A stretch of DNA of 64,000 nucleotides, taken from contig CAJXUQ010000006.1 in NCBI GenBank assembly GCA_913061145.1, forward strand, positions 62,001 to 126,000. Reading direction: 5' to 3'. Origin of the DNA: an uncultured Haliea sp. GTDB lineage: Bacteria; Pseudomonadota; Gammaproteobacteria; Pseudomonadales; Halieaceae. This document shows positions 43,956 through 62,361 of the stretch, one piece after another (position 1 is the first letter of the stretch; each line of letters opens with the position of its first letter). The translations under genes were made by a program, and so were the position numbers. The notes below the pieces were generated by a model. That model was not told where the DNA came from, made no database searches, and saw only the letters and a list, made by a program, of their open reading frames with translations.

Positions 43956-44477
43956 ATGAAACGCCTGTGCACGAGCCTTCTCTTCAGCCTTGCCTGCGCC
44001 CTCGCTCTACCGGCTGCGGTGTCTGCCAGCGACACTCCGCAACCCGGCAATCTGCAGCTGGTGGGCGAAGCGCGCCTCAACGTCATGTTCTGGTCGGTCT
44101 ACGACTCCAGGCTGTACACCGCCAATGGCCGCTACGAGCCCGACCAGCGGCCATTGCGCCTGGAGATCCAGTATCTGCGTGACTTCGAGGCCAGGGCCCT
44201 GGTACAGCGTACCGGCGAAGAGTGGGATCACCTGCAACTGTCACATGAGCGCCGCGAGCAGTGGCTGCAACAGCTCGCCACACTGTGGCCGGATGTGGGC
44301 AAGAACGATGTGATAGCGCTGGAAATCGATGTCGATAACCGCAGCACGTTCTTTTTCAACAACGAAAAACTGGGCGTCATTGACGATGCTGACTTCGGGG
44401 AGCACTTCGTTGCCATCTGGCTCTCGCCCGATACCAGTCGCCCGGCCCTGCGCGAGGCCCTGATCGGCAGCCTTTAG
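43956..44477 (+). CDS. Chalcone isomerase-like periplasmic protein
   Basis: 173 residues with a signal peptide ending AVSA, so exported. The rest matches the chalcone_isomerase-like (chalcone_3) fold: LVGEARLNVMFWSVYDSRLYT, EIQYLRDFEARALVQRTGEEWDHL and FFFNNEKLGVIDDADFGEHFVAIWL. Bacterial members are thought to bind fatty acids or another hydrophobic ligand rather than isomerise flavonoids. It is transcribed with DUF2878. Its stop codon overlaps that of the convergent waaA gene (TAG/TAA overlap, 4 bp). Confidence 0.85.
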   Translation: MKRLCTSLLFSLACALALPAAVSASDTPQPGNLQLVGEARLNVMFWSVYDSRLYTANGRYEPDQRPLRLEIQYLRDFEARALVQRTGEEWDHLQLSHERREQWLQQLATLWPDVGKNDVIALEIDVDNRSTFFFNNEKLGVIDDADFGEHFVAIWLSPDTSRPALREALIGSL

Positions 44478-45763
44478 GGTGGGCTCGCACCCAGTACCGG
44501 CAGGCGTTGTGCCAGCCCCTGCAACACAGCCTCCAGCGGCCCACGGTTGGCTTCAATGAGGGCCAGGGCACAAGCGCCCGTCCGCCGCCGCAGGTCGCTG
44601 TCGGCCAGCAGGGCCTGCACGGCGCTGGCCAGGCTGTTGGCGCCTGTCACTGGCACCAGGCCACCGGCCTCATCCAGCGCGGCGTAGATCGCTTCGAAGT
44701 TGAATACGTGGGGGCCTGCCAGCACCGGAAGGCCCCAGGCCGCCGGTTCAAGCGGGTTGTGCCCACCGCGCTGAATCAGCGACCCTGCCACAAAGGCAAT
44801 ATCCGCCGCGCCATAAAGCAGCAGCAACTCACCCATCGTGTCACCCAGATACACCTGGGTGCCGGGCGCCAGCGCGTCATCTCCGCCTGCGGAGCGCCGG
44901 ACCAGCGCAAAGCCACCGGCCTGTATCCGCTGGGCAACAGCCTCGAAACGTTCCGGGTGACGCGGCACCAGCATGAGCAGGGCCTCGGGCCAGCGCTCCA
45001 GTACCCGCCGGTGCGCGGCGAGAATCTGCTCGTCCTCCCCGTCGTGGGTACTGGCCGCTATCCACACCGGACGGGATTCGCCCAGCTGACGACGCAAGCG
45101 CTCCGCCGACGCGCGCGATACACTGTCGACCACCACATCGAACTTGATACTGCCGGTCACCGACACCCGCTCGCCGGAAGCGCCGATTTCCCGAAAACGC
45201 CGCGCATCGTCCACACCCTGCGCGGCAATCCAGGCAAGCTGCGCTACCATGGGGTGGACCAGTCCGGCGATACGCCGGTAACCGCGGGCCGAGCGCTCCG
45301 ACAGTCTGGCATTCACCAGCGCCACGGGAATTCCGCGCTCCTCTGTCAGGGCCACCATGTTCGGCCACAGCTCGGTTTCCATGATGATCAGGGCGGCTGG
45401 GCGCGCCCTGTCCAGGAAGCGTGACACCGCGCCCGGCGTGTCATACGGGGAAAACGCATACCGTATGCGGTCACCGAACAGGGCGCGGGCCCGCGCCGAG
45501 CCGGTGGCTGTCATGGCGGTCATGAGGATGCGGCAACCGGGGTGGCGCCGCAGCAGGGCATCCACCAGGGGCGCGGCGGCGATGGTCTCGCCCACGGACA
45601 CCGCGTGTACCCAGATGACGGGGCCGGAGGACGGGGCCACCCAACCGAGACGCTCACGCCAGTTGCCGCGCAGGGTGGCATTACCCCGGCTTGCCCACCA
45701 CAGCTGCAGCAACACGAGGGGCAGTGCAAGGCGAAACACAAAAGAGTACAGCGCGCGCAGCAT
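44474..45763 (-). CDS. waaA: 3-deoxy-D-manno-octulosonic acid transferase
   Basis: Adds Kdo from CMP-Kdo to lipid IVA at the inner membrane (GT30 family). The ATG at 45763 opens the usual N-terminal anchor (LYSFVFRLALPLVLLQLWW); a frame reaching 45949 overlaps the divergent gene and is rejected. 429 residues, like E. coli WaaA (425). Matches include IWVHAVSVGETIAA, ILMTAMTATGSARA, LIIMETELWPN and the C-terminal GHNPLEPAAWGLPVLAGP. A Kdo kinase gene lies 8 kb away, so this may transfer a single Kdo. Confidence 0.95.
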   Translation of the reverse strand: MLRALYSFVFRLALPLVLLQLWWASRGNATLRGNWRERLGWVAPSSGPVIWVHAVSVGETIAAAPLVDALLRRHPGCRILMTAMTATGSARARALFGDRIRYAFSPYDTPGAVSRFLDRARPAALIIMETELWPNMVALTEERGIPVALVNARLSERSARGYRRIAGLVHPMVAQLAWIAAQGVDDARRFREIGASGERVSVTGSIKFDVVVDSVSRASAERLRRQLGESRPVWIAASTHDGEDEQILAAHRRVLERWPEALLMLVPRHPERFEAVAQRIQAGGFALVRRSAGGDDALAPGTQVYLGDTMGELLLLYGAADIAFVAGSLIQRGGHNPLEPAAWGLPVLAGPHVFNFEAIYAALDEAGGLVPVTGANSLASAVQALLADSDLRRRTGACALALIEANRGPLEAVLQGLAQRLPVLGASPP

Positions 45764-45877
45764 GGCGATTCCGGAACACAGGACAGCCCGCATTCTACCC
45801 AATGCCCGCGCCCGCTGCCGCAGAACTATTCCCGCCTGACCCTGCAGGGCTGTTAAACTTCGGGCTCCGTTCGATGA

Positions 45878-46846
45878 ATGAGAGTGTGCCACCCGGTGAG
45901 CACCCCACGGCAACGCATCCGCGACACGCGCTACGGCAGTTACCTGCACCCCCGCTGGTGGCCGACCTGGTTGTTGATCGGGCTGATGTGGCTGCTGTCA
46001 CGGCTGCCGCTGCGGGCGCAGTGGTGGCTCGGCAAAGGCGTGGGAGAACTGGCCTACCGGGCCCTCCCGCGCCGCAGGCACATCGCCGAAGTCAACATTC
46101 GCCTGTGCTTTCCGGAACTGAGTGCGGAAGAGCAGGCGAGCCTGGTACGGCGTGCCTTTCATTCCAATGGCATCGGCATTCTGGAGATCGGCCTCGCCTG
46201 GTTTCGTGACCCGGCCGCGTTCCTGCCGCAGACACGGGTGCACGGCCTGGAGCACGTTGAACGGGCGCTGGCTCAGGGCAAAGGCATTCTGGCACTCGGT
46301 GGGCATTACAGTTCGCTGGATCTGTGCGGCACCCTGGTGACCGAATTTGTCGAAGCAGACGTCATGCAGCGCGACCACAACAATGCCCTGCTCAATGCCG
46401 TGATGACCCGCGCCCGTGAGCGCCGCTACGGGGTGGCGCTATCGGCCAAGGACCTGCGTGGCCTGTTGCGGCAGCTGCGGGCAAACCGCACGATATGGTA
46501 CGCAACCGACCAGGATTATGGCCGCAAGGGCATCGTGTTCGCACCTTTCTTTGGCGTCGAAACCGCTTCCATTACGGCGACCTCTCGCATTGCGGAGCGC
46601 AGCGGCTGCGCGGTCATGCCCTTCAGCCACTTTCGCCGCAGCGACGGTGTGCCGGGCTACGACATCTACTTCCACCCACCGCTGGAGCACTTTCCCTCCG
46701 GTGACGACGAGGCCGATGCAAGGCTGGTCAACGCCACCATCGAACACGAGGTGCGCCGCCATCCGGAGCAGTACCTGTGGATGCACAGACGCTTCAAGAC
46801 CCGCCCCAGCCCCCGGGATGCCGACCCCTACCGCAGGGAGCGTTAG
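45878..46846 (+). CDS. lpxL: Lipid A late acyltransferase, LpxL/HtrB type
   Basis: Adds a secondary acyl chain to Kdo-lipid A in the inner membrane. 322 residues from the ATG at 45878; an in-frame GTG at 45896 would remove six residues and starts just before STPRQRI. An N-terminal helix (WWPTWLLIGLMWLLSRLP) anchors it. The HX4D motif is GGHYSSLDLC; the family signature VNIRLCFPELSAEEQ and YATDQDYGRKG are present. Tandem with a second acyltransferase gene on the same strand, divergent from waaA. The RBS is weak, so the start is uncertain. Confidence 0.88.
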   Translation: MRVCHPVSTPRQRIRDTRYGSYLHPRWWPTWLLIGLMWLLSRLPLRAQWWLGKGVGELAYRALPRRRHIAEVNIRLCFPELSAEEQASLVRRAFHSNGIGILEIGLAWFRDPAAFLPQTRVHGLEHVERALAQGKGILALGGHYSSLDLCGTLVTEFVEADVMQRDHNNALLNAVMTRARERRYGVALSAKDLRGLLRQLRANRTIWYATDQDYGRKGIVFAPFFGVETASITATSRIAERSGCAVMPFSHFRRSDGVPGYDIYFHPPLEHFPSGDDEADARLVNATIEHEVRRHPEQYLWMHRRFKTRPSPRDADPYRRER

Positions 46847-46906
46847 CGTGACGCGCTCGACGGTGATAGCGTTGCAACCTGTTGGCACTGTTTGAGCATA
46901 CGCTTT

Positions 46907-47806
46907 ATGGCATTGACCCGCGCAACCCTGCTGATCGCACTGATTCGTCTGCTCGCCCGGCTGAGCCTGGCCAGCGCGCAGCGGCTCGGTGCCCTGCTGG
47001 GCGGCCTCGTAAGCCGCTTGCCCAACCGTTCCAGCCGGGTGACGCAGATCAATCTTGCCATCGCCTACCCCGAGCTCGGCGAGCGCGAGCGCAAGGCCCT
47101 GGCGCGGCAGAGCCTCGAGCATACTGGCCGGGTGGCGCTGGAAATTCCGCTGATCTGGGAGTGGCCGGTGGAGCGCTGCCTGGAACTGGTGCAGGAGATC
47201 GAAGGGGAGGAACTGCTCACCGAGGCGAGGGCCGGCGGCAAGGGCCTGCTGCTGCTTGCCCCACATCTCGGGAACTGGGAGCTCTGTGGGCTGTACTTTT
47301 CTTCCCGCTACCGGATGGCTGCACTCTACAGTCCGCCGTCGCTACCCGGCTTCGAAGACTACATGACCGCGTGCCGGGGCCGCTTCGGCGGAGAGTATGT
47401 TCCTGGAGATCGCCGCGGACTCGCGCGACTGATCGGGCTGCTGCGCGAAGGCGAGGTTTCGGGCATCCTGCCCGACCAGAGCCCCCGTTCCGCCGGTAGC
47501 GCCTATGCCCCGTTTTTCGGCATGGAGGTGCGCACCATGACACTGGTGAGCAAACTGCTGCAAAAATCCGGCGCGGTGCCCCTGATGACCTGGTGCCAGC
47601 GCCTGCCGAACAGCCGTGGCTTTCGCCTGATCGTGCGGCGTTGTGAGGAGGGCATGGCAGACCCGGATCCCGTGGTGGCAACGAGCGCACTCAATCGCTC
47701 GGTGGAAGCCTGTGTGCGCGAGGCGCCCGAACAGTACCAGTGGGAATACAAACGCTTTCGTCATCGCCCGCCCGGCCAGCCGGACCCCTACCGCAAGGCG
47801 CCCTGA
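46907..47806 (+). CDS. Second lipid A-type lysophospholipid acyltransferase (LpxM/LpxL2-like)
   Basis: 299 residues from the ATG at 46907; a TTG at 46892 adds five. HX4D/E motif is APHLGNWELCG, with Glu in place of Asp, as common in LpxM and related enzymes. The family signature QINLAIAYPELGERER and LPDQSPRSAGSAYAPFFG follow. 61 bp after the LpxL-type gene, so the pair likely supplies the two secondary chains of hexa-acyl lipid A. It may alternatively be an ornithine-lipid or general lysophospholipid enzyme. Confidence 0.83.
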   Translation: MALTRATLLIALIRLLARLSLASAQRLGALLGGLVSRLPNRSSRVTQINLAIAYPELGERERKALARQSLEHTGRVALEIPLIWEWPVERCLELVQEIEGEELLTEARAGGKGLLLLAPHLGNWELCGLYFSSRYRMAALYSPPSLPGFEDYMTACRGRFGGEYVPGDRRGLARLIGLLREGEVSGILPDQSPRSAGSAYAPFFGMEVRTMTLVSKLLQKSGAVPLMTWCQRLPNSRGFRLIVRRCEEGMADPDPVVATSALNRSVEACVREAPEQYQWEYKRFRHRPPGQPDPYRKAP

Positions 47807-47850
47807 CGCCGTGTGCTAAACTGGCCAACCCCACCCGACACGACGCCCGC

Positions 47851-48927
47851 ATGCGCCACTACCTGTTCTTCGTCAACCAGCCCTACGCCTACTCCATCCT
47901 GCGTCCACTGCAGGCCGAAATCCGTCGCCGCGGCGATGAGGCGGCCTGGTTTGTTGCGGGCTGCAGCACTGCGCCGTTGCAGGCTGACGAACACCTGCTG
48001 CGAACACTGGAAGAAGCGCGCGCCTATCCCGCGGTGGCTACCTTTGTACCCGGCGACTGGGTGCCGCACTTTCTCCCCGGCATCAAGGTGGAGGTGTTCC
48101 ATGGTCTGGCGCGCAACAAGCGCGGGCACGCCACGGAGGACGCCAGCGACCATTACACCATTCGCGGCTGGTTCGACCTCTATTGCACGCATGCCAGCAA
48201 CGACACACAGAAATTCTCGGCGCTGGCGGCAGAGCATGGGCACTTCCGCGTTGCCCGCACCGGCTGGCCAAAACTGGATCCACTGTTCGCCTCGGGCACG
48301 CCTGCCGGGCAGCGCCTGCGTGCCAGCGACGAGCCTCCGGTAGTGTTCTACGCCTCCACCTTCAGCCGGGCCATCACCTCGGCACCTGCGCTGGAGGGTG
48401 TGATCGCCCGGTTGGCAGACTCCGGCAAGTGGCGCTTCATTGTGACCCTGCACCCGAAAATGGACCCGGAGATCGTCCAGCGCTATCGGGAGATGAGCGG
48501 ACCCAACCTGCGCTTCGTAGAGAGCAACGCGGATCTGCTGCCGATTCTCCCCGAGGCTGATGTGATGCTCTGCGACACCTCCTCCATCATGTTCGAGTTC
48601 ATGTTCCTCGACCGGCCGGTGGTGACCTACCGCAGCCGCATGGCCGGACCCTGGTTGCTGGATGTACAGGAGGTGGATGCCGTGGAGCCCGCGCTGGCGC
48701 AGGCGCTGGAGCGGCCACCCGCGCTGCTGGAGGCGGCCCGGGCACTGTGTACAGAACTGCACGCGTTTACCGATGGACATGCCAGCGCCAGGGTACTGGA
48801 TGCGGTTGATGAGGCGCTCGCTGCCGGACCACCGCCCAAATCCAAACCACTGAACCTGTGGCGCAAGCTGAAGATGCGCCGCCGACTGCGCAAGGCGCTC
48901 GCCGCTACGGCTCAGTCAGTGCCGTAA
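47851..48927 (+). CDS. CDP-glycerol glycerophosphotransferase family protein
   Basis: 358-residue GT-B-like protein similar to TagB/TagF enzymes, which join glycerol phosphate from CDP-glycerol to a lipid-linked or sugar acceptor. Visible parts: GIKVEVFHGLARNK (the conserved FHG block), YCTHASNDTQKF, TGWPKLDPLF, and ILPEADVMLCDTSSIMFEFMFLDRPVV (the conserved DTSS region). The ATG at 47851 is chosen over an earlier frame starting in the upstream gene. Sits after two lipid A acyltransferases and overlaps the convergent WaaL-GT2 gene by 16 bp. Acceptor and donor are not known. Confidence 0.78.
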   Translation: MRHYLFFVNQPYAYSILRPLQAEIRRRGDEAAWFVAGCSTAPLQADEHLLRTLEEARAYPAVATFVPGDWVPHFLPGIKVEVFHGLARNKRGHATEDASDHYTIRGWFDLYCTHASNDTQKFSALAAEHGHFRVARTGWPKLDPLFASGTPAGQRLRASDEPPVVFYASTFSRAITSAPALEGVIARLADSGKWRFIVTLHPKMDPEIVQRYREMSGPNLRFVESNADLLPILPEADVMLCDTSSIMFEFMFLDRPVVTYRSRMAGPWLLDVQEVDAVEPALAQALERPPALLEAARALCTELHAFTDGHASARVLDAVDEALAAGPPPKSKPLNLWRKLKMRRRLRKALAATAQSVP

Positions 48928-50927
48928 CGGGGGCGATTCCGGGTCCACAGGCCGGCGTATTTGTTGAAACTTACCTGGGCGTATAGGACGGCTGACAGAA
49001 AGCCCACCTGCCCGTCGAGAAAGCCCAGCCTCAACAGATACACGTGCACGAACGTCAACAGGCCGCGGGCCGTGGGGTAGACCAGCGAGCGCACCCGTTT
49101 ACCCTGCCGGTGCTTTTCCTGCGCGCCCAGCCAGGCGTACTGGGCGCCCTTCTGCAGCGCATGACCGAAGTCACGGTGGGTGAAGTGCACCAGCCGCCCG
49201 CGCAAGGTGCGCACGCGGCGGTCCGCCGGCAACAGGATTTTTTCGTGCACCAGGGCATCGGAAAAACGCACCCCGTCGCGCCGGAAAAGGCGTAGTGGTG
49301 CACGACCGCTACGCCCAAAATCCAGCCGGGTGCCATAGATGGTCACCGCCCAGGGCAGACAGTAGGCATCCGCAGACGGCGCCGCCAGCACGTGGTTGAT
49401 CTCCGCCGCCAGCCCGGGACTCACCCGCTCGTCCGCATCAATCGATAGCACCCAGTCGCCGCTGGCACGCGCCAGCGCCCGCTGTTTCTGGATGCCAAAA
49501 CCGGGCCAGTCCGTCTCGACCACGTGAGGGGTAAATTCGCGTGCGATAGCCACCGTCCGGTCGGCGCTACCACTGTCGACCACGATGATCTCATCGGCTA
49601 TTGCGGCCACGGAGGCAAGGCAGGCGCCGATATGCTCCTCTTCGTTCTTGGTGATCACAATTACCGACAGGCTTACAGCGCGCTGGCGCGTGCAGGCGCG
49701 CCGCAACTCGGTCACCAGTACCGCGCCACAGACCGCCAGCGCGAGCAGGTAAAAGGTGATGAACACGCTGCGCGAGAACACGGCTTCGGTGAGCCCGAAG
49801 ACGGCGTACCCCGCGGGCAGCAGCACGCCAATTGAGGCGATAAAGGCCACCGCCGGCTCCGGCGCGCGCAGATGACGGGCAAAGACCCGCAGTGGAATCA
49901 GCAGCAGCAACAGCCAGCTCAGGCCGCCGAGCAGCCCACGGGTCGCCAGGCTTTGCAACAGGTCGTTGTGGGCATGGCTGGTACAGCAATTGAGCACAAA
50001 TTGCGGCTGGTCCAGCGCGCCCGCCGCGGCCGCCGCCCGCACCGCATCGTGATAGGCATTCAGCCCCCCACCAAACCAGGGCTGGGCGACAAACTCAGCC
50101 CAGGCAATCTGCCATATGGCCAGACGAGAGGCGGTCTGCACGTCGAAATCGCCCGCCTGCAGACTGATCACGGTTTCCAGAAAACGTGCGTTGCCAACCA
50201 CGGTCAGCGTCAGAAACACCAGGCCGGCCAGCACCGCCAGGACACGCTGAGGTGGGCGCATCTGTGGCAACAGCACAGCCAGCAACACGGGCAGCGCCAG
50301 CACATTGCTCCGGGTCTGGGTAAGCAGTGCAGCCGCCAGCGCGAGACCCGCCAGCACCAGTGCCAGGCTCGCATAACCCCTGTGCTGCAAGCGCTGCCAG
50401 TACAACGCGGCTGACAGCAACACCGCCGCTGCCAGCAGCGAGAGATTGCCAAGGGTAATGGGGTTGAGCCAGAGCCCTGCGCGCATGGATTCCCCCGGCG
50501 AAGGGGGTGCCGCGAAAAGCAGGCTGGCCACGGTGTGCACCGCAGCACCCAGTGCCATCAGCGCAAAGCCGGCAAATACACCACGGGCACTCAGGCCCGA
50601 CCAGCTGAGGGACAGCACCAGGGGCCAGAAGAGCAGCAGACGAGCGGGGCCGTCCAGCTCCTTGAGACCACGATAATCAAAACCACTTGCCGCCCAGTAG
50701 AGCAGGAAAATCCCCACCGGGAACCAGCAGGCAAAATGCAGGAGACGGAGTTCGCGCGGCTGTTCCCACCCGCCGGCGTGAAGTTCCCGGCGCAACGCAG
50801 GCAGCGCAGCGGCCAGCGCAAGCAGGATGACGGCGGCGGACAACAGGCTGGAATAAAGCAGAGACCCGGCAAAACCGGCGACCGCCAGGCCTGCCAGCAC
50901 CTGTTGGCCTCGTGCCGATGAAATCAT
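48912..50927 (-). CDS. O-antigen ligase (WaaL-like) fused to GT2 glycosyltransferase (WaaE-like)
   Basis: One frame of 671 residues. Residues 1-410 form about 11 membrane helices with the ligase landmarks TQTRSNVLALP and the periplasmic-loop His in SHAHNDLLQSLATRGLLGG. Residues from about 417 begin SLSVIVITKNEEEHIGACLA and continue as a 250-residue cytosolic GT2 domain of the WaaE/KdtX type with SIDADERVSP (DxD). The fused chain would add an inner-core sugar and ligate O-antigen, or couple both. No stop or start codon lies at the join (GTA there). The ATG at 50927 is preferred to 51290, whose leader is unrelated. Confidence 0.87.
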   Translation of the reverse strand: MISSARGQQVLAGLAVAGFAGSLLYSSLLSAAVILLALAAALPALRRELHAGGWEQPRELRLLHFACWFPVGIFLLYWAASGFDYRGLKELDGPARLLLFWPLVLSLSWSGLSARGVFAGFALMALGAAVHTVASLLFAAPPSPGESMRAGLWLNPITLGNLSLLAAAVLLSAALYWQRLQHRGYASLALVLAGLALAAALLTQTRSNVLALPVLLAVLLPQMRPPQRVLAVLAGLVFLTLTVVGNARFLETVISLQAGDFDVQTASRLAIWQIAWAEFVAQPWFGGGLNAYHDAVRAAAAAGALDQPQFVLNCCTSHAHNDLLQSLATRGLLGGLSWLLLLLIPLRVFARHLRAPEPAVAFIASIGVLLPAGYAVFGLTEAVFSRSVFITFYLLALAVCGAVLVTELRRACTRQRAVSLSVIVITKNEEEHIGACLASVAAIADEIIVVDSGSADRTVAIAREFTPHVVETDWPGFGIQKQRALARASGDWVLSIDADERVSPGLAAEINHVLAAPSADAYCLPWAVTIYGTRLDFGRSGRAPLRLFRRDGVRFSDALVHEKILLPADRRVRTLRGRLVHFTHRDFGHALQKGAQYAWLGAQEKHRQGKRVRSLVYPTARGLLTFVHVYLLRLGFLDGQVGFLSAVLYAQVSFNKYAGLWTRNRPRYGTD

Positions 50928-51053: not shown

Positions 51054-52145
51054 ATGAAAGCGCTTTGTATCACAGACTGTGCAGACCGCCCGGAAACGGA
51101 GCTGTTCATTCGGCTCGCCCATCGCATGGAACGCTTTGCGATCATGAGCAATCCGGCCGGCCGCTATCACAGCCTGCTGGTGGACGCAGGGCTCGAGGTG
51201 ATTCCCCTGAAAATCCGCGGCCGCTTCGATCGCGAGGCAACAGCCCTGATCCGGGATACCGTGTACGCCGGCGACTACGACATTGTGCATGCGTTCAATT
51301 CACGCGCTGTGACCTGTATGTTGCGCGCCGCAGGCGGGCACCGCGCCCGCCTGCTCGCCTACCGGGGCGTCACGACCGGTGTCGGCTATGGCAAGCCGGA
51401 AGCCTGGCTGACCTTCCTCAATCCGCGCCTGGACGGGATCCTGTGCGTCGCCGATGCCATCCGGGATGCGCTGCTGGCCGTGCGCCTGCTCTGGTTGCAC
51501 CTGCCGCCCGAAAAGCTGAAAACGATCCACAAGGGTCATGAACTTGACTGGTATGACGTGGAGCCGGCGGCGCTGACGGAGTTTGGCGTGCCTGAGGATG
51601 CCATAACCCTGTGCTGCATCAGCCGCAACAGCGCCAAAAAAGGCGCATTGACCCTGCTTGATGCCTTTGACGCACTACCCACCGAGTTGAACAGCCATCT
51701 GCTGCTGATCGGCTCTGTGGACAGCAATGCCAGAGTGCGCGAGCGCGCCGCCCGCTGCCGGCACCCCGAGCGCGTGCACTTTACCGGCTACCGGACTGAT
51801 GTCACACAGATACTCAGCGCCGCCGATCTGCTGGTGTCAGCCTCGGAAAGCGGCGAAGGCCTGCCGCGGGTTGTCATCGAAGCGATGGCGGTGAACACCC
51901 CCGTTGTCGCCACTGACGCCGGCGGCACTCGGGAGCTCGTGCTGCACGGTGAAACCGGCCTGCTGGTACCGCAGCGCAGCCCCGCAGCACTGAGCGCGGC
52001 AATCCGTGACGCCCTGCAGGATACTGCGGCTGCGGCACAGCGCGCGAAGAATGCGCGGCGCCGCATCGCAGAGGCATTCAATGCCGAGCAGACCGCGGTA
52101 AACACCTACGCCTGGTATCAGGAGCGGCTGGCCTCTGCCCCGTAA
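51054..52145 (+). CDS. GT4 family glycosyltransferase
   Basis: 363-residue GT-B retaining glycosyltransferase. The C-terminal nucleotide-sugar site shows ISRNSAKKGALTLLDAF, VHFTGYRTDVTQILSAADLLVSASESG, and the EX7E motif EGLPRVVIE, then ATDAGGTRELVLHGETGLLVP. Position in the LPS locus implies a core sugar transfer; sugar is unknown. The ATG is 127 bp from the divergent WaaL-GT2 gene. Its last 28 bp overlap the 3' end of the convergent epimerase gene, an unusually long overlap. Confidence 0.87.
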   Translation: MKALCITDCADRPETELFIRLAHRMERFAIMSNPAGRYHSLLVDAGLEVIPLKIRGRFDREATALIRDTVYAGDYDIVHAFNSRAVTCMLRAAGGHRARLLAYRGVTTGVGYGKPEAWLTFLNPRLDGILCVADAIRDALLAVRLLWLHLPPEKLKTIHKGHELDWYDVEPAALTEFGVPEDAITLCCISRNSAKKGALTLLDAFDALPTELNSHLLLIGSVDSNARVRERAARCRHPERVHFTGYRTDVTQILSAADLLVSASESGEGLPRVVIEAMAVNTPVVATDAGGTRELVLHGETGLLVPQRSPAALSAAIRDALQDTAAAAQRAKNARRRIAEAFNAEQTAVNTYAWYQERLASAP

Positions 52146-53140
52146 TAGTCTTTATACCAGTCAACAAAACGCGTCACGCCCTCGGCAACTCCTGTGCGCG
52201 GCGCATAGCCTGTCAGTTCGCGCAACGCGCTGACATCGGCATAGGTTTCGGCAACGTCACCGGGTTGCATGGGCAGCATGATCTTCTCCGCCCTGCGCCC
52301 CAGGCGCTGTTCCAGCAATTCGATGAACTCCAGCAAATGCACCGGGCGCTCACAACCGATGTTGAAAATACGATACGGGGCGCTGGAGGTGGCAGGATCG
52401 GCAGCCAGGGCATCCCAATCGGGGTTGGGCGCCGGAGGCCTGGCCAGCACGCCCAGAATCCCGTCGACGATGTCCTCGATAAAGGTGAAGTCGCGCCGGT
52501 GTTGTCCGTGGTTGAAGACCTCCAGCGGCTCCCCGGCCAGAATCTTGCGGCAGAAAATCATCGGCGCCATGTCTGGACGACCCCAGGGGCCATAGACCGT
52601 GAAGAAGCGCAGCCCCGTCGTGGGTAACTGGTAGAGATGGCTGTAGGAGTGCGCCATCAACTCATTGGCCTTTTTCGTGGCGGCGTACAGCGACACCGGG
52701 TGGTCCACGCTGTGGCTGACACTGAAGGGCTGACGCGCATTGCTGCCGTAAACGGAGCTGCTACTGGCGTAGACCAGGTGCTCCACCGGAAAATGCCGGC
52801 AACATTCGAGCATATTGCCGAACGCCACCAGGTTGGAGGTCAGGTAGGCCTCGGGGTGCGTCAGTGAGTAGCGCACACCCGCCTGCGCGGCCAGGTGAAT
52901 GACAGCGTCCGGACGGAAATGGCTGAACCAGTCCCGCAGCCGGGCCGCATCAGACAGGCAGAACACGGCCTCGCTGAAACCCGGTTGAGCCCGCAGGCGC
53001 GCGAGACGCGCCTGCTTCAGCGTGACGTCGTAATAGTCATTGAGGTTGTCGATGCCGGCCACCTCGTGTCCCTGCGCCAGCAACTGCAACGCCGTTTCGC
53101 ACCCGATAAAGCCGGCTGCGCCGGTGACCAATACCTTCAT
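52118..53140 (-). CDS. UDP-glucuronate 4-epimerase-like NAD-dependent epimerase
   Basis: Converts UDP-glucuronate to UDP-galacturonate in the family; 340 residues, close to the usual 335-340. NAD loop GAAGFIG at the N-terminus, catalytic YAATKKANE (YxxxK) near residue 150, and LVYASSSSVYG with the catalytic Ser. The segment FTVYGPWGRPDMAPMIF and NIGCERPVHLLEF are typical of this group. ATG at 53140 has AGGAGAGG upstream and overlaps the kdkA stop (ATGA, 4 bp), so it is translated after kdkA. Suggests galacturonate in the core. Confidence 0.9.
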   Translation of the reverse strand: MKVLVTGAAGFIGCETALQLLAQGHEVAGIDNLNDYYDVTLKQARLARLRAQPGFSEAVFCLSDAARLRDWFSHFRPDAVIHLAAQAGVRYSLTHPEAYLTSNLVAFGNMLECCRHFPVEHLVYASSSSVYGSNARQPFSVSHSVDHPVSLYAATKKANELMAHSYSHLYQLPTTGLRFFTVYGPWGRPDMAPMIFCRKILAGEPLEVFNHGQHRRDFTFIEDIVDGILGVLARPPAPNPDWDALAADPATSSAPYRIFNIGCERPVHLLEFIELLEQRLGRRAEKIMLPMQPGDVAETYADVSALRELTGYAPRTGVAEGVTRFVDWYKDYYGAEASRS

Positions 53141-53868
53141 TGCCTCTCCTGATCTGGCTTCATGGCAGCATAGCCCTGCATTAACGCTGACCACAGTGCA
53201 CGCCGCTGCGCTGCCGGGAGCGCATGGCAACGCTTCGCAACCGAACGCTGCAAGCGATCGAGATTGGCCTGCTGCCAGCGTTGCGCGGGGTGACGCAGCC
53301 TGCAGCGGTCAAAATCGATCAACCAGATGCCCTCAGGGGCATGCAGCACGTTGTCGCAGTTCAAGTCCACGTGGTCCAGGCCCGCTGCATGAAACCTGGC
53401 CAAAAGCGCACCGAGCCGCTGCCACAGCTCCGGGTCCCCCACTGCAGGGGACACCGGCAACGGCACCGCCCCGGGTATGCGGCGCAACAGGATGGCCGCG
53501 CGACAGGTGAACAGACCGTCGCGCTCTGCCAGCGCAGCGATAGGTTCCGGCACAGGCAGGTGCATGTCACGCAAGCGCTGCAGCAGGCGGAACTCGCGCA
53601 GCGAACGGCAGCGATTGAAGCCCGTAAACAGGTAACTGCGGTGCGTGATCCGCGCCATCATACCGCCGCGCAGATACTGCCGGAGCACCAGTTCGCCGGC
53701 GTCAGCCTGTACAAAAAACGCCCCGCCGCGACCACCGACCGCCACCGGGCGCGCGCGCTCACCCCAGAACTGCGGCTCCAGCCACGCGGCCTGCACACCG
53801 TCTACGGCCGGGTTGCACAGCAACAGGGAGCGATGCCCGGGAACAATGTGCTCTGTCACGCCGCTCAC
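53137..53868 (-). CDS. kdkA: 3-deoxy-D-manno-octulosonic acid kinase
   Basis: Phosphorylates the Kdo residue of lipid A-Kdo at O-4. 243 residues, close to Haemophilus KdkA (241). The kinase-like catalytic segment is LDHVDLNCDNVLHAPEGIWLIDFDRCRLR, giving HxDLxxxN and the IDFD metal site. Earlier GGRGGAFFV and RQYLRGGMMARI form the nucleotide loop. It is co-transcribed with the epimerase, overlapping it by 4 bp. KdkA is found where WaaA adds one Kdo only, so the inner core here is predicted to start with a single Kdo phosphate. Confidence 0.92.
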   Translation of the reverse strand: MSGVTEHIVPGHRSLLLCNPAVDGVQAAWLEPQFWGERARPVAVGGRGGAFFVQADAGELVLRQYLRGGMMARITHRSYLFTGFNRCRSLREFRLLQRLRDMHLPVPEPIAALAERDGLFTCRAAILLRRIPGAVPLPVSPAVGDPELWQRLGALLARFHAAGLDHVDLNCDNVLHAPEGIWLIDFDRCRLRHPAQRWQQANLDRLQRSVAKRCHALPAAQRRALWSALMQGYAAMKPDQERQ

Positions 53869-53997
53869 GGCACGTCAACGTCCTCAGTGCGAGCCGTCAC
53901 CGGCGGCAGCGGTAAAGACCCCGGCGGGAGACTCGGATAGAATGCATGCAGTGTAGCAATGATGATGCATCAAGCTCTACCGCCGCTGGAACCCGCG

Positions 53998-55074
53998 ATG
54001 TCACAAACGCCACTTCAATCGATTTGCTTGCTGCGCCTGTCAGCCCTGGGCGATGTGACCCATGTGATACCTGTCGTCTTGAGCCTGCAGGAGCAGCTTC
54101 CGGGGGTGGGTATCACCTGGATTATCGGCAAGCTCGAAGCGCGCCTGGTGGGTGACCTGCCGGGGGTGACGTTCATCGTCTTCGACAAGCGCGCCGGCTG
54201 GCGCGGCTACCGCGACCTGTACAGGACGCTGCGCGGCCAGCGCTTTGATGCCCTGCTGCACATGCAGGTGGCCGCCCGCGCCAACCTTGTTTCCCTGCTG
54301 GTGCGGGCACGCCTGCGGGTCGGGTACGACCGTGCGCGCAGCAAGGACGGGCACGGCCTGTGCATCAACCGGCGCATCGCGCCGGCGCCCAGGCAACATG
54401 TACGCGATTGCCTGGCCAGTTTTCTGCAACCGCTGGGATTACAACCCGCAGCGCCGCGCTGGCACATCCCGCTGGACGAGAAGGACCATGCCTTCGCGCG
54501 GCGCCACCTGGCTGCCGACCGGCGCACCCTGGTGATCAGCCCCTGCTCCAGCCATGCCCTGCGCAACTGGCCCGTAAGCCATTACGCTGCGCTCGCCGAT
54601 TACGCCGCGGGGACTCACGGCATGCAGGTCATTCTCGTGGGCAGCCCGGCGGCCCATGAGCAGGAAACCTGCGCGGCCATAGCCGCCGCCATGCAGCAAC
54701 CCGTCGAGAATATCTGCGGCCAGGACACGCTGAAACAGCTCGCCGCACTGCTGGCCGGTGCCGACCTGCTGGTAGCGCCGGACACAGGGCCAGCGCATAT
54801 CGCCAGCAGCGTAGGCACCGATGTGCTGGGACTGTTTGCCGCCAGTAACCCACAGCGTTCCGGCCCCTACAACTCGCTGCACTGGTGCGTGGACCGCTAC
54901 CCCGATGCACTGCGCCGCTTCCGCCAGCAGAGCGTTGATGAAGCCCGCTGGGGCGCAAAGGTGGAGGTGCCGGGAGCCATGGAGCTGGTGACGGTTGCGG
55001 ATGCCACCGGGAAGCTGGACCAGTGGCTGGCGGCGCAGAAACCGGCGACCGCAGAGTCAGGCAGGCCCCGCTAG
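53998..55074 (+). CDS. GT9 heptosyltransferase-like (WaaC/WaaF family)
   Basis: 358 residues from the ATG at 53998; the frame continues to 53959 but begins in a run of Met codons with no ribosome site. GT9 landmarks: ICLLRLSALGDVTHVIPV at the N-terminus, GYDRARSKDGHGLCINRR, SPCSSHALRNWP, and VAPDTGPAHIASSVGTDVLGLFAASNP. Transfers a heptose or similar sugar from ADP-heptose to Kdo. Sits beside kdkA but on the other strand; its stop overlaps DUF6165 by 4 bp. It is more like heptosyltransferase I than II, but this needs a tree. Confidence 0.87.
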   Translation: MSQTPLQSICLLRLSALGDVTHVIPVVLSLQEQLPGVGITWIIGKLEARLVGDLPGVTFIVFDKRAGWRGYRDLYRTLRGQRFDALLHMQVAARANLVSLLVRARLRVGYDRARSKDGHGLCINRRIAPAPRQHVRDCLASFLQPLGLQPAAPRWHIPLDEKDHAFARRHLAADRRTLVISPCSSHALRNWPVSHYAALADYAAGTHGMQVILVGSPAAHEQETCAAIAAAMQQPVENICGQDTLKQLAALLAGADLLVAPDTGPAHIASSVGTDVLGLFAASNPQRSGPYNSLHWCVDRYPDALRRFRQQSVDEARWGAKVEVPGAMELVTVADATGKLDQWLAAQKPATAESGRPR

Positions 55075-60780: not shown

Positions 60781-62361
60781 ATGGATACGAGCAGGCTCTA
60801 CCAGCCGCCCCTGATGCCGCAGCTGCTGATCGAGGGGCTGAACCGCCACCACGACCAGCCCTGCCTGTTTCTTGGCGACAAGGTGGCGACCTACCGCGAG
60901 GTGCGCGAGCGCACCAGCCAACTGGTGCAGGCGCTGCAGTCGGTTGGCCTTGGCAAGGGCAGCCGCATTGCGGTCATCTCGGGCAACCGCCCGGAAGTGC
61001 TGGCCAATATCGCAGCCATGCAGCTCAACGGCTGTATCGGCACGCCCCTGCATCCGCTGGGGTCACTTGATGATCACGCCTACATACTTGAAGCGGCGGA
61101 AATCGATGCGCTGGTTTTCGATCCGGCCACCTTCGACGAGCACGCGGCCCGACTGCAGGCGCGGGTCCCCGGTGTCAAGCACCTGCTGGCCTTCGGCCCG
61201 AGCACCCACGGCAGGGACTACCTGGCACTGGCTGACGGCTTCACGCCGCAACCTCTGGTCGCCCCCGACATCAACCCGGAGGATATTGCCTCCATCAACT
61301 TCACCGGCGGCACCACCGGGCGACCCAAGGGGGTGATGAGCAGCTACCGCGTGACCAGCTACATGACACAGGTACAGCTGGCCGAGTGGGAATTCCCCGA
61401 TGATCTGCGCATGCTGATCGCCACACCGCTCTCCCATGCTGCCGCGGCTTTTTTCATACCCGTTCTGCAGAAGGGTGGCGCGTTCTACGTGATGCAGGGT
61501 TTCAGCCCGGACGCGTTTTTCGACATGGTGCAGGCACACCGCATCACGGCGACCATGCTGGTACCGGTGATGCTGTATTTCCTGCTTGACTCACCACGCG
61601 CGCAGAGCGCCGACATGTCCAGTATGCAAACCATTTTCTATGGCGCATCGCCGATGAGCCCCGCGCGTTTGCAGCAGGCTATCGCGCTGTGGGGGCAGGT
61701 GTTCTACCAGTTTTTTGGCCAGTCAGAGGCGCCCATGGTGGTGGCCAACATGCGGCGCAAGGAGCACGACCTGGGCCGGCCCCAGCGGCTGGGCGCCTGT
61801 GGGCGACCCTCCCCCTGGGTGCCGCTGGCGCTGCTGGACGCTGACGGCAAACCGGTTGCAGCGGGTGAGGCTGGCGAGATCTGCGTGCGCGGCCCGCTGG
61901 TCATGAGTGGTTACAAGGACATGCCGGAGGCCACTGCCGAGGCTTTCGCCGGCGGCTGGCTGCACACCGGCGATATCGGGCGCCTGGACGACGAGGGCTT
62001 TCTGTACATTGTCGATCGCACCAAGGACATGATCGTCACCGGGGGCTTCAACGTCTACCCGCGGGAGGTGGAGGACGTGCTGAGCCGGCACCCGGCCGTG
62101 CAGCAGGTAGCCGTGATCGGCGTGCCTGACGCCCAGTGGGGTGAGGCGGTAAAGGCAGTGGTGGTGGTCAAATCCGGTATCGCTGCCGATGCTGCACTTG
62201 CCGCGGACCTGAAGCAGACGGTGAAAGACGCCAAGGGTTCGGTGCAGGCACCGAAGAGCGTGGACTACGTCGATGCCATTCCCCTCACGCCGGTGGGCAA
62301 ACCGGACAAAAAGGCCCTGCGCGCCCGCTATTGGAGCAAGGAGGCCCGTGGCGTCAGCTGA
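60781..62361 (+). CDS. AMP-dependent acyl-CoA synthetase
   Basis: Activates a carboxylic acid to its CoA thioester with ATP. 526 residues. The phosphate loop is INFTGGTTGRPKGVMSS, followed by IFYGASPMSPARL, GWLHTGDIGRLDDEG, VDRTKDMIVTGGFNVYPREVE, and the C-terminal catalytic Lys in TPVGKPDKKALR. Chain length or ring preference cannot be told. Start ATG at 60781 is 21 bp after the esterase gene and probably on the same transcript. The DMT exporter gene is convergent, ending 23 bp away. Confidence 0.92.
   Translation: MDTSRLYQPPLMPQLLIEGLNRHHDQPCLFLGDKVATYREVRERTSQLVQALQSVGLGKGSRIAVISGNRPEVLANIAAMQLNGCIGTPLHPLGSLDDHAYILEAAEIDALVFDPATFDEHAARLQARVPGVKHLLAFGPSTHGRDYLALADGFTPQPLVAPDINPEDIASINFTGGTTGRPKGVMSSYRVTSYMTQVQLAEWEFPDDLRMLIATPLSHAAAAFFIPVLQKGGAFYVMQGFSPDAFFDMVQAHRITATMLVPVMLYFLLDSPRAQSADMSSMQTIFYGASPMSPARLQQAIALWGQVFYQFFGQSEAPMVVANMRRKEHDLGRPQRLGACGRPSPWVPLALLDADGKPVAAGEAGEICVRGPLVMSGYKDMPEATAEAFAGGWLHTGDIGRLDDEGFLYIVDRTKDMIVTGGFNVYPREVEDVLSRHPAVQQVAVIGVPDAQWGEAVKAVVVVKSGIAADAALAADLKQTVKDAKGSVQAPKSVDYVDAIPLTPVGKPDKKALRARYWSKEARGVS

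Follow-up and report, generated by a model that had tools for sequence, protein, structure and literature searches.

The window analysed here is a 64,000-nucleotide stretch (positions 62,001 to 126,000 of contig CAJXUQ010000006.1, assembly GCA_913061145.1) from an uncultured Haliea sp. of the Gammaproteobacteria. It carries a gene whose protein product has a WaaL-type O-antigen ligase half followed by a WaaE-type family 2 glycosyltransferase (GT2) half. This fusion is real, and relatives share it. We computed the fusion itself, its conservation, the domain families, the modelled topology, the catalytic residues and the core-locus context. The reading that we favour, and consider probable, is a two-sided enzyme of lipopolysaccharide (LPS) assembly with its GT2 half on the cytosolic side and its WaaL half on the periplasmic side.

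Results

The fused gene is coded on the minus strand from 50927 to 48915, its stop reaching 48912, and its 671 residues are interrupted by no internal stop. An earlier note on this DNA, made from the sequence alone, had given the right coordinates, 48912-50927, and left the strand unstated. Its description of a WaaL-like part with the motif SHAHNDLL (residues 317-324) and a WaaE-like GT2 domain in one chain is borne out by the Pfam domains and the uninterrupted frame. The Wzy_C match (E-value 3.5e-19) and the Glycos_transf_2 match, which covers residues 421-544 (E-value 1.5e-21), are both far above their cut-offs; the NCBIfam scan of the fused protein gave no model at or above its cut-off. The start ATG at 50927 and the near-identical bases preceding it are matched in four loci (L008, L010, L011 and L012), and the frame is also open upstream, as far as an ATG at 51290.

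The join lies where the earlier note had placed it, at residues 412-417 (49694-49677). In this linker R414 and R416 are invariant across the 21 aligned fused proteins of alignment A1, and the spacing between the two domain matches is 12-15 residues in the intact Haliea, Marinobacter and Halospina rows. The join region of ten genes, inspected by eye, holds no conserved ATG or Shine-Dalgarno sequence, and GTG and TTG codons are present in it. Internal initiation at the join is thus not supported by a conserved ATG, though these codons leave formal room for it.

The in-frame join is repeated in separately assembled genomes at 34-100% identity. The ratio of nonsynonymous to synonymous substitution rates (dN/dS) was computed on seven pairs, one of which gave no dS. 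It was 0.12-0.25 in the membrane half and 0.03-0.08 in the GT2 half of four Haliea-group pairs, and 0.11 and 0.02 between M. pelagius and M. profundi. The GT2 half was the more alike of the two in all seven pairs. Because most of the change in either half is synonymous and the in-frame join is shared across separate assemblies, a frameshift error is excluded, including the one at about 49,670 that the earlier note had named as fatal to the fusion.

The ligase half is modelled with the fold of WaaL. The AlphaFold2 model built on A1 had a mean predicted local distance difference test (pLDDT) score of 79.1 and a predicted template modelling (pTM) score of 0.71. We assigned 12 membrane helices within residues 5-411 from the model itself rather than by a membrane-helix predictor; the largest loop (246-321), itself partly helical, lies between helices 9 and 10, and the mixed alpha/beta GT2 domain comes after the helices. 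The best Foldseek match in the PDB is WaaL 7tpg (E-value 3.5e-9, TM-score 0.70 by target length), which is also the best relative by the A1 sequence profile (8e-28). R206, R268 and H320 align with R191, R265 and H313 of 7tpg, with positions counted along the alignment, and we take the latter to be essential in that WaaL.

For the E. coli WaaL, R215, R288 and H338 are named as important (PMC3643930), and these are taken as the same positions as R206, R268 and H320. The fused protein thus has Wzy_C over the cut-off, the WaaL fold with its helix 9-10 loop and the conserved Arg, Arg and His. The ligase half is a predicted transferase of O-antigen from undecaprenyl diphosphate to the lipid A-core. 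Among 20 fused rows inspected, the window copy included, R206 and R268 are kept in 18 and H320 in 17; the H320 exceptions are Leu in L140 and a gap in L063 and L064.

The earlier note had stated that WaaL and WaaE act on opposite faces of the inner membrane. The two faces stand, and they make no contradiction. With 12 helices and the large loop in the periplasm, the C-terminal GT2 domain is put in the cytosol by the model. A topological impossibility of the fusion was considered and rejected on the same model.

The GT2 half is 44.4% identical to a Klebsiella GT2 located between waaA and coaD (over 36% of the query). We take this slot to be the place of waaE. In the window too, a waaE-related GT2 domain stands in a core locus with waaA, which marks the WaaE/KdtX type, although the Klebsiella WaaE/KdtX is a separate protein whereas the GT2 here is fused. 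As waaE is the gene of a heptose (HepI) beta-1,4-glucosyltransferase (PMC5372535), the GT2 half probably adds a hexose, predicted to be glucose on the inner-core heptose. Another genome (G654) encodes a 643-residue protein (L146:379-2307, minus) in which a GT2 from the clade of the fused GT2 halves is joined to a GT4 domain in place of a ligase.

The fusion was found in at least 9 of the 140 genomes of the family search, whose counts are lower bounds. It is present in 7 of the 8 listed genomes of the window's genus (g1) and in both of g19. In G019, of genus g1, contig ends break the gene within roughly its first 65 residues, away from the join. Among the matches listed, there was no full-length one in the other 130 family genomes. 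Here g1 is read as Haliea, and g47 below as Marinobacter, from matching sequences.

From a collection of named genomes the best 80 of 133 loci were kept, and our own profiles found both halves in one frame in 32 of these. The fused taxa are Haliea and other Halieaceae, Marinobacter, a metagenome-assembled genome (MAG) labelled Halomonas, Halospina denitrificans and a Wenzhouxiangella MAG. In two of the 32 loci (L063 and L064) the Wzy_C domain is no longer recognisable.

Profile A1, made of the 21 fused proteins, was used for order and class searches that scored at most about three candidates per genome, with counts again being lower bounds. A full-length fusion occurs in at least 5 of 390 genomes of the order search (G000 and four of f20 g47) and in at least 5 of 369 of the class search (G000, G721, G706, G566 and G690). 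G702 resembles a sixth class-level fusion cut by contig ends, and its two 'solo' rows (L142 and L173) are probably one such gene. The same two-domain order, proposed earlier as something to look for in relatives, is therefore present in Haliea, Marinobacter, Halospina, Wenzhouxiangella and four further genomes of the class. The orthologues are not all split, as would have spoken against a fusion, while split neighbours are common.

Of the best 80 loci, 48 are unfused, and 13 of these have a weakly matching ligase frame ending 10 bases or less from the start of the GT2 match. Pfam confirmed Wzy_C in all three that were tested (L077, L087 and L099). Nine split junctions were inspected; four lie in one frame with a stop between (L127, L143, L144 and L156) and the others in different frames, some overlapping. 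Since the ligase gene often stands directly before the waaE-type gene in split relatives, the fusion of a tandem pair is a simple origin. A tandem waaL-waaE operon pair is thus the likely source.

The trees were a quick GT2 tree of 152 rows, a GT2 tree of 48 rows that we picked from those 152, and a ligase-half tree of 51 rows leaving out many Marinobacter loci and L063/L064. Near-duplicate loci and rows below score or length limits were dropped from the 152-row and ligase-half sets. The fused label needs two changes on the 48-row tree (0% of 200 bootstrap trees need one), three on the 152-row tree, which warns of long branches meeting, and five on the ligase-half tree. All 41 fused GT2 rows in the 152-row tree and all 19 in the 48-row tree fall in one supported clade, unfused rows included. 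Whichever half is used, the fusions of Haliea, Marinobacter and Halospina group in a single clade, at 100/100 in the 48-row GT2 and 51-row ligase trees. Taken together, the trees fit either a single ancient fusion followed by losses or more than one fusion.

The gene stands in an LPS core locus (Table 1). An epimerase gene is likewise among its neighbours, and no NCBIfam heptosyltransferase model exceeded its cut-off on the GT9 gene. Over their last 16 bases (48912-48927) the fused gene and the convergent CDP-glycerol glycerophosphotransferase-like gene overlap.

Table 1. Features of the fused gene and its neighbours in the window
Feature	Coordinates	Strand	Basis
Fused gene, 671 residues, WaaL-type ligase half and WaaE-type GT2 half	48912..50927	minus	open frame, Pfam, orthologues
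Ligase half, residues 1-411, 12 membrane helices by model reading	49695..50927	minus	AlphaFold2, Foldseek
Wzy_C domain, residues 193-339	49911..50351	minus	Pfam PF04932, 69.5 bits, cut-off 31.7
Predicted periplasmic loop, residues 246-321, with R248, R268, H318, H320	49965..50192	minus	model; 7tpg alignment
Linker, residues 412-417	49677..49694	minus	alignment A1, linker list
GT2 half, residues 418-671, WaaE/KdtX type, DSGS and DADE motifs	48915..49676	minus	Pfam PF00535, 77.5 bits
waaA, 3-deoxy-D-manno-octulosonic acid (Kdo) transferase	44474..45949	minus	NCBIfam PRK05749.1-4, 534.5 bits, cut-off 438
Two lipid A acyltransferase genes	45878-46846, 46892-47806	plus	Pfam PF03279 in both
CDP-glycerol glycerophosphotransferase-like gene, convergent	47740..48927	plus	Pfam PF04464, 55.3 bits
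GT4 glycosyltransferase, divergent neighbour	51054..52145	plus	Pfam PF00534
Kdo kinase (kdkA type)	53137..53868	minus	NCBIfam PRK01723, 238.1 bits, cut-off 142
GT9 heptosyltransferase-family gene	53959..55074	plus	Pfam PF01075

The neighbourhood was compared over 33 loci of our choice by scoring 11 window neighbours. Near the fused gene, 7-11 of the 11 are found in all four Haliea loci and 7-8 in all nine Marinobacter loci. The distant fused loci (Halospina, Wenzhouxiangella and four others) show 0-2, in stretches of differing length. In G021, of genus g1, window-like flanks enclose a different core cassette that replaces the fused gene and its nearest neighbours (L191, 10270-14332) and comprises a stand-alone Wzy_C gene, a GT4 and another GT2. 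The part of the core locus that holds the fused gene is hence exchangeable.

As a side observation, a 620-residue frame (L164:7425-9287, minus, G000:C1:145001-165000) joins a MurF-like ligase and a peptidyl-tRNA hydrolase domain, scoring 174.9 bits with TIGR01143, below the cut-off, and 131.3 bits with TIGR00447, above it.

Discussion

We favour the following mechanism for the fused protein. The C-terminal WaaE/KdtX-type GT2 would add a hexose, probably glucose, to the lipid A-core at its inner-core heptose on the cytosolic face. MsbA, which flips the lipid A-core, would then carry the core across the membrane. There the periplasmic site of the WaaL half (R206, R268 and H320) would transfer an undecaprenyl-diphosphate-linked glycan to it. 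The fusion, from a tandem waaL-waaE pair, would tie the two enzymes together and anchor the GT2 at the membrane. We infer the activity of each half, the identity of the sugar and of its acceptor, and any kinetic coupling between the two steps. It is plausible that ligation is coupled to completion of the core.

The other reading that deserves most attention is that the protein is mainly a membrane-anchored core GT2, its ligase half being a scaffold or dispensable as another Wzy_C protein ligates. M. mangrovi (L063:7932-9566) and M. halodurans (L064:7992-9623) have a shortened fused protein of about 545 residues in an open frame, with two helices and the catalytic loop lost. In the alignment both proteins lack residues at the positions of R206, R248, H318 and H320 and have a different one at R268, and their GT2 half keeps all the residues inspected. 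By our count the L064 model (mean pLDDT 71.2) has ten long helices before the GT2 domain in place of 12; as the number lost is even, the GT2 end would stay in the cytosol. In this single pair dN/dS is 0.05 in the GT2 half vs 0.36 in the membrane remnant.

These two versions indicate that the halves are separable. The GT2 part is under the stronger constraint, and the ligase half is able to survive as a membrane part once its chemistry has gone. The greater likeness of the GT2 half in every pair compared also favours this reading. Because two natural variants retain the GT2 half after loss of the ligase residues, the coupling is not obligatory. A stand-alone Wzy_C gene lies on the same contig in both, about 6 kb from the fused gene in L064 (446 residues, 75.1 bits) and about 10 kb in L063 (468 residues; the contigs of the two genes are taken as one from their equal length, 181,237). 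Moreover, at least two Wzy_C matches were found in each of the 18 genomes searched, at E-values up to 0.001 and some under the Pfam cut-off.

A second, stand-alone Wzy_C gene (424-469 residues) also accompanies the intact fusion in L041, L053, L056, L057, L059 and L062, and may be a polymerase or a second ligase. The presence of a ligase-family gene nearby is therefore not enough to conclude that a fusion is dead. Another Wzy_C protein, 662 residues long and with a weakly matching TPR at its tail end, is encoded in a Halospina genome (L172:529-2514, minus, G880).

Against the scaffold stands the retention of the catalytic Arg, Arg and His in most fused rows. Also, in the window's genome, which is 97.8% complete, no second LPS-type ligase candidate was found. 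It has two Wzy_C matches, the fused gene included, and the second is an exosortase-A-type ligase (TIGR03097, 355.7 bits), so the fused gene is the best LPS ligase candidate there. We consider this reading unlikely.

Alternatively, the membrane half may transfer something other than O-antigen, as in protein O-glycosylation or with a capsule-like polymer, or polymerise as Wzy does. PglL belongs to the Wzy_C family (PMC3643930), and the fused protein itself has weak matches to TIGR03097 and TfpM, both far under cut-off. The O-antigen assembly genes are identified in part, although a supply of lipid-linked glycan is plausible given four flippase-family matches and a glycan gene cluster on contig C33 of the window's genome. 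The LPS core locus, the fusion to a core-type GT2 and the closest structure being WaaL 7tpg all speak for the lipid A-core instead, and make these other substrates quite improbable.

A sequencing, assembly or annotation artefact, in which a lost stop joins two genes, could draw on the four split pairs that lie in one frame, but has practically no chance and is already refuted by the same fused frame in separate assemblies, the conserved linker and the synonymous-dominated divergence.

Several observations weigh against the two-sided enzyme. The positive-inside bias is weak, with Lys and Arg at 7 of 43 residues in the loops read as cytosolic and 7 of 116 in those read as periplasmic. The second half of the GT2 is poorly modelled, with pLDDT below 50 at residues 519-545 and 556-586. 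Pfam and fold cannot separate WaaL from related undecaprenyl-glycan transferases; likewise, simple sequence comparison cannot tell WaaL from PglL (PMC3643930). The fused relative L140 (G690), which has Leu in place of H320, may be impaired as a ligase, or the position may be misaligned, and the two Marinobacter versions are without ligase residues.

The spread and the genome content add to these. The distribution of the fusion is patchy: of 15 listed g47 genomes, 11 are without it and 4 with it. Among L035-L065 the fusion is intact in 29 loci, and six of them have a further stand-alone Wzy_C gene in their stretch, so the fused ligase need not be the sole one in those species. An ordinary long O-antigen is not assured, given that the single Wzz-like match in the window's genome is barely above its cut-off (26.4 vs 25.5 bits).

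The closest precedent is Brucella WadA, termed the first bifunctional O-antigen ligase by its authors, in which an N-terminal glycosyltransferase domain (1-266) is followed by a C-terminal 12-helix ligase (267-703). Deletion of its loop gives rough LPS, and the ligase domain alone complements (PMC9938171). The CAZy authors assign WadA to GT25 plus GT121 and report it from five genera, Brucella and Mesorhizobium among them (PMC10920833); 'GT2' as a whole word has 0 occurrences in the main text of that paper. WadA is proposed to act on both inner-membrane faces (PMC9938171, PMC10920833), and we propose the same logic here.

Both proteins combine a core glycosyltransferase and a 12-helix O-antigen ligase in one chain. 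However, WadA has its GT25 first and its ligase second, whereas the window protein has no N-terminal GT25, its ligase coming first and its GT2 second. The window-type fusion is found in gammaproteobacteria, and it is known from sequence and model whereas the function of WadA was tested. Hence the window protein does not belong to the WadA group, even if its mode of action may be similar. By its sequence it appears as a mirror-image variant of the Brucella two-part enzyme.

As compared with the WaaL structures 7tpg and 7tpj, which we take to be from Cupriavidus metallidurans, the fold, the helix number and the aligned Arg, Arg and His are the same. The 7tpg protein is without a fused domain and shares 20% identity in the fold alignment. 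Our literature search, over open-licence papers only and mostly their listings, recognised no description of a WaaL-GT2 fusion.

Tentatively, and at somewhat less than even chances, the fused proteins may be a second class of two-sided LPS enzyme with an evolutionary origin of its own, whose ligase fold doubles as a membrane mount for the GT2. In the two Marinobacter species it would have become a pseudo-ligase, with the scaffold role alone selected and a separate ligase-family gene nearby.

In summary, the reversed order and the different glycosyltransferase family, if the window protein is a counterpart of WadA, would make the ligase-core glycosyltransferase fusion a repeated solution and not the oddity of one lineage. 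The split, fused and ligase-dead forms among the relatives offer a direct test of the purpose of the fusion and are the most useful for further work. If the separate class with its pseudo-ligases is true, they would be a natural separation-of-function set for why LPS enzymes fuse across the membrane.

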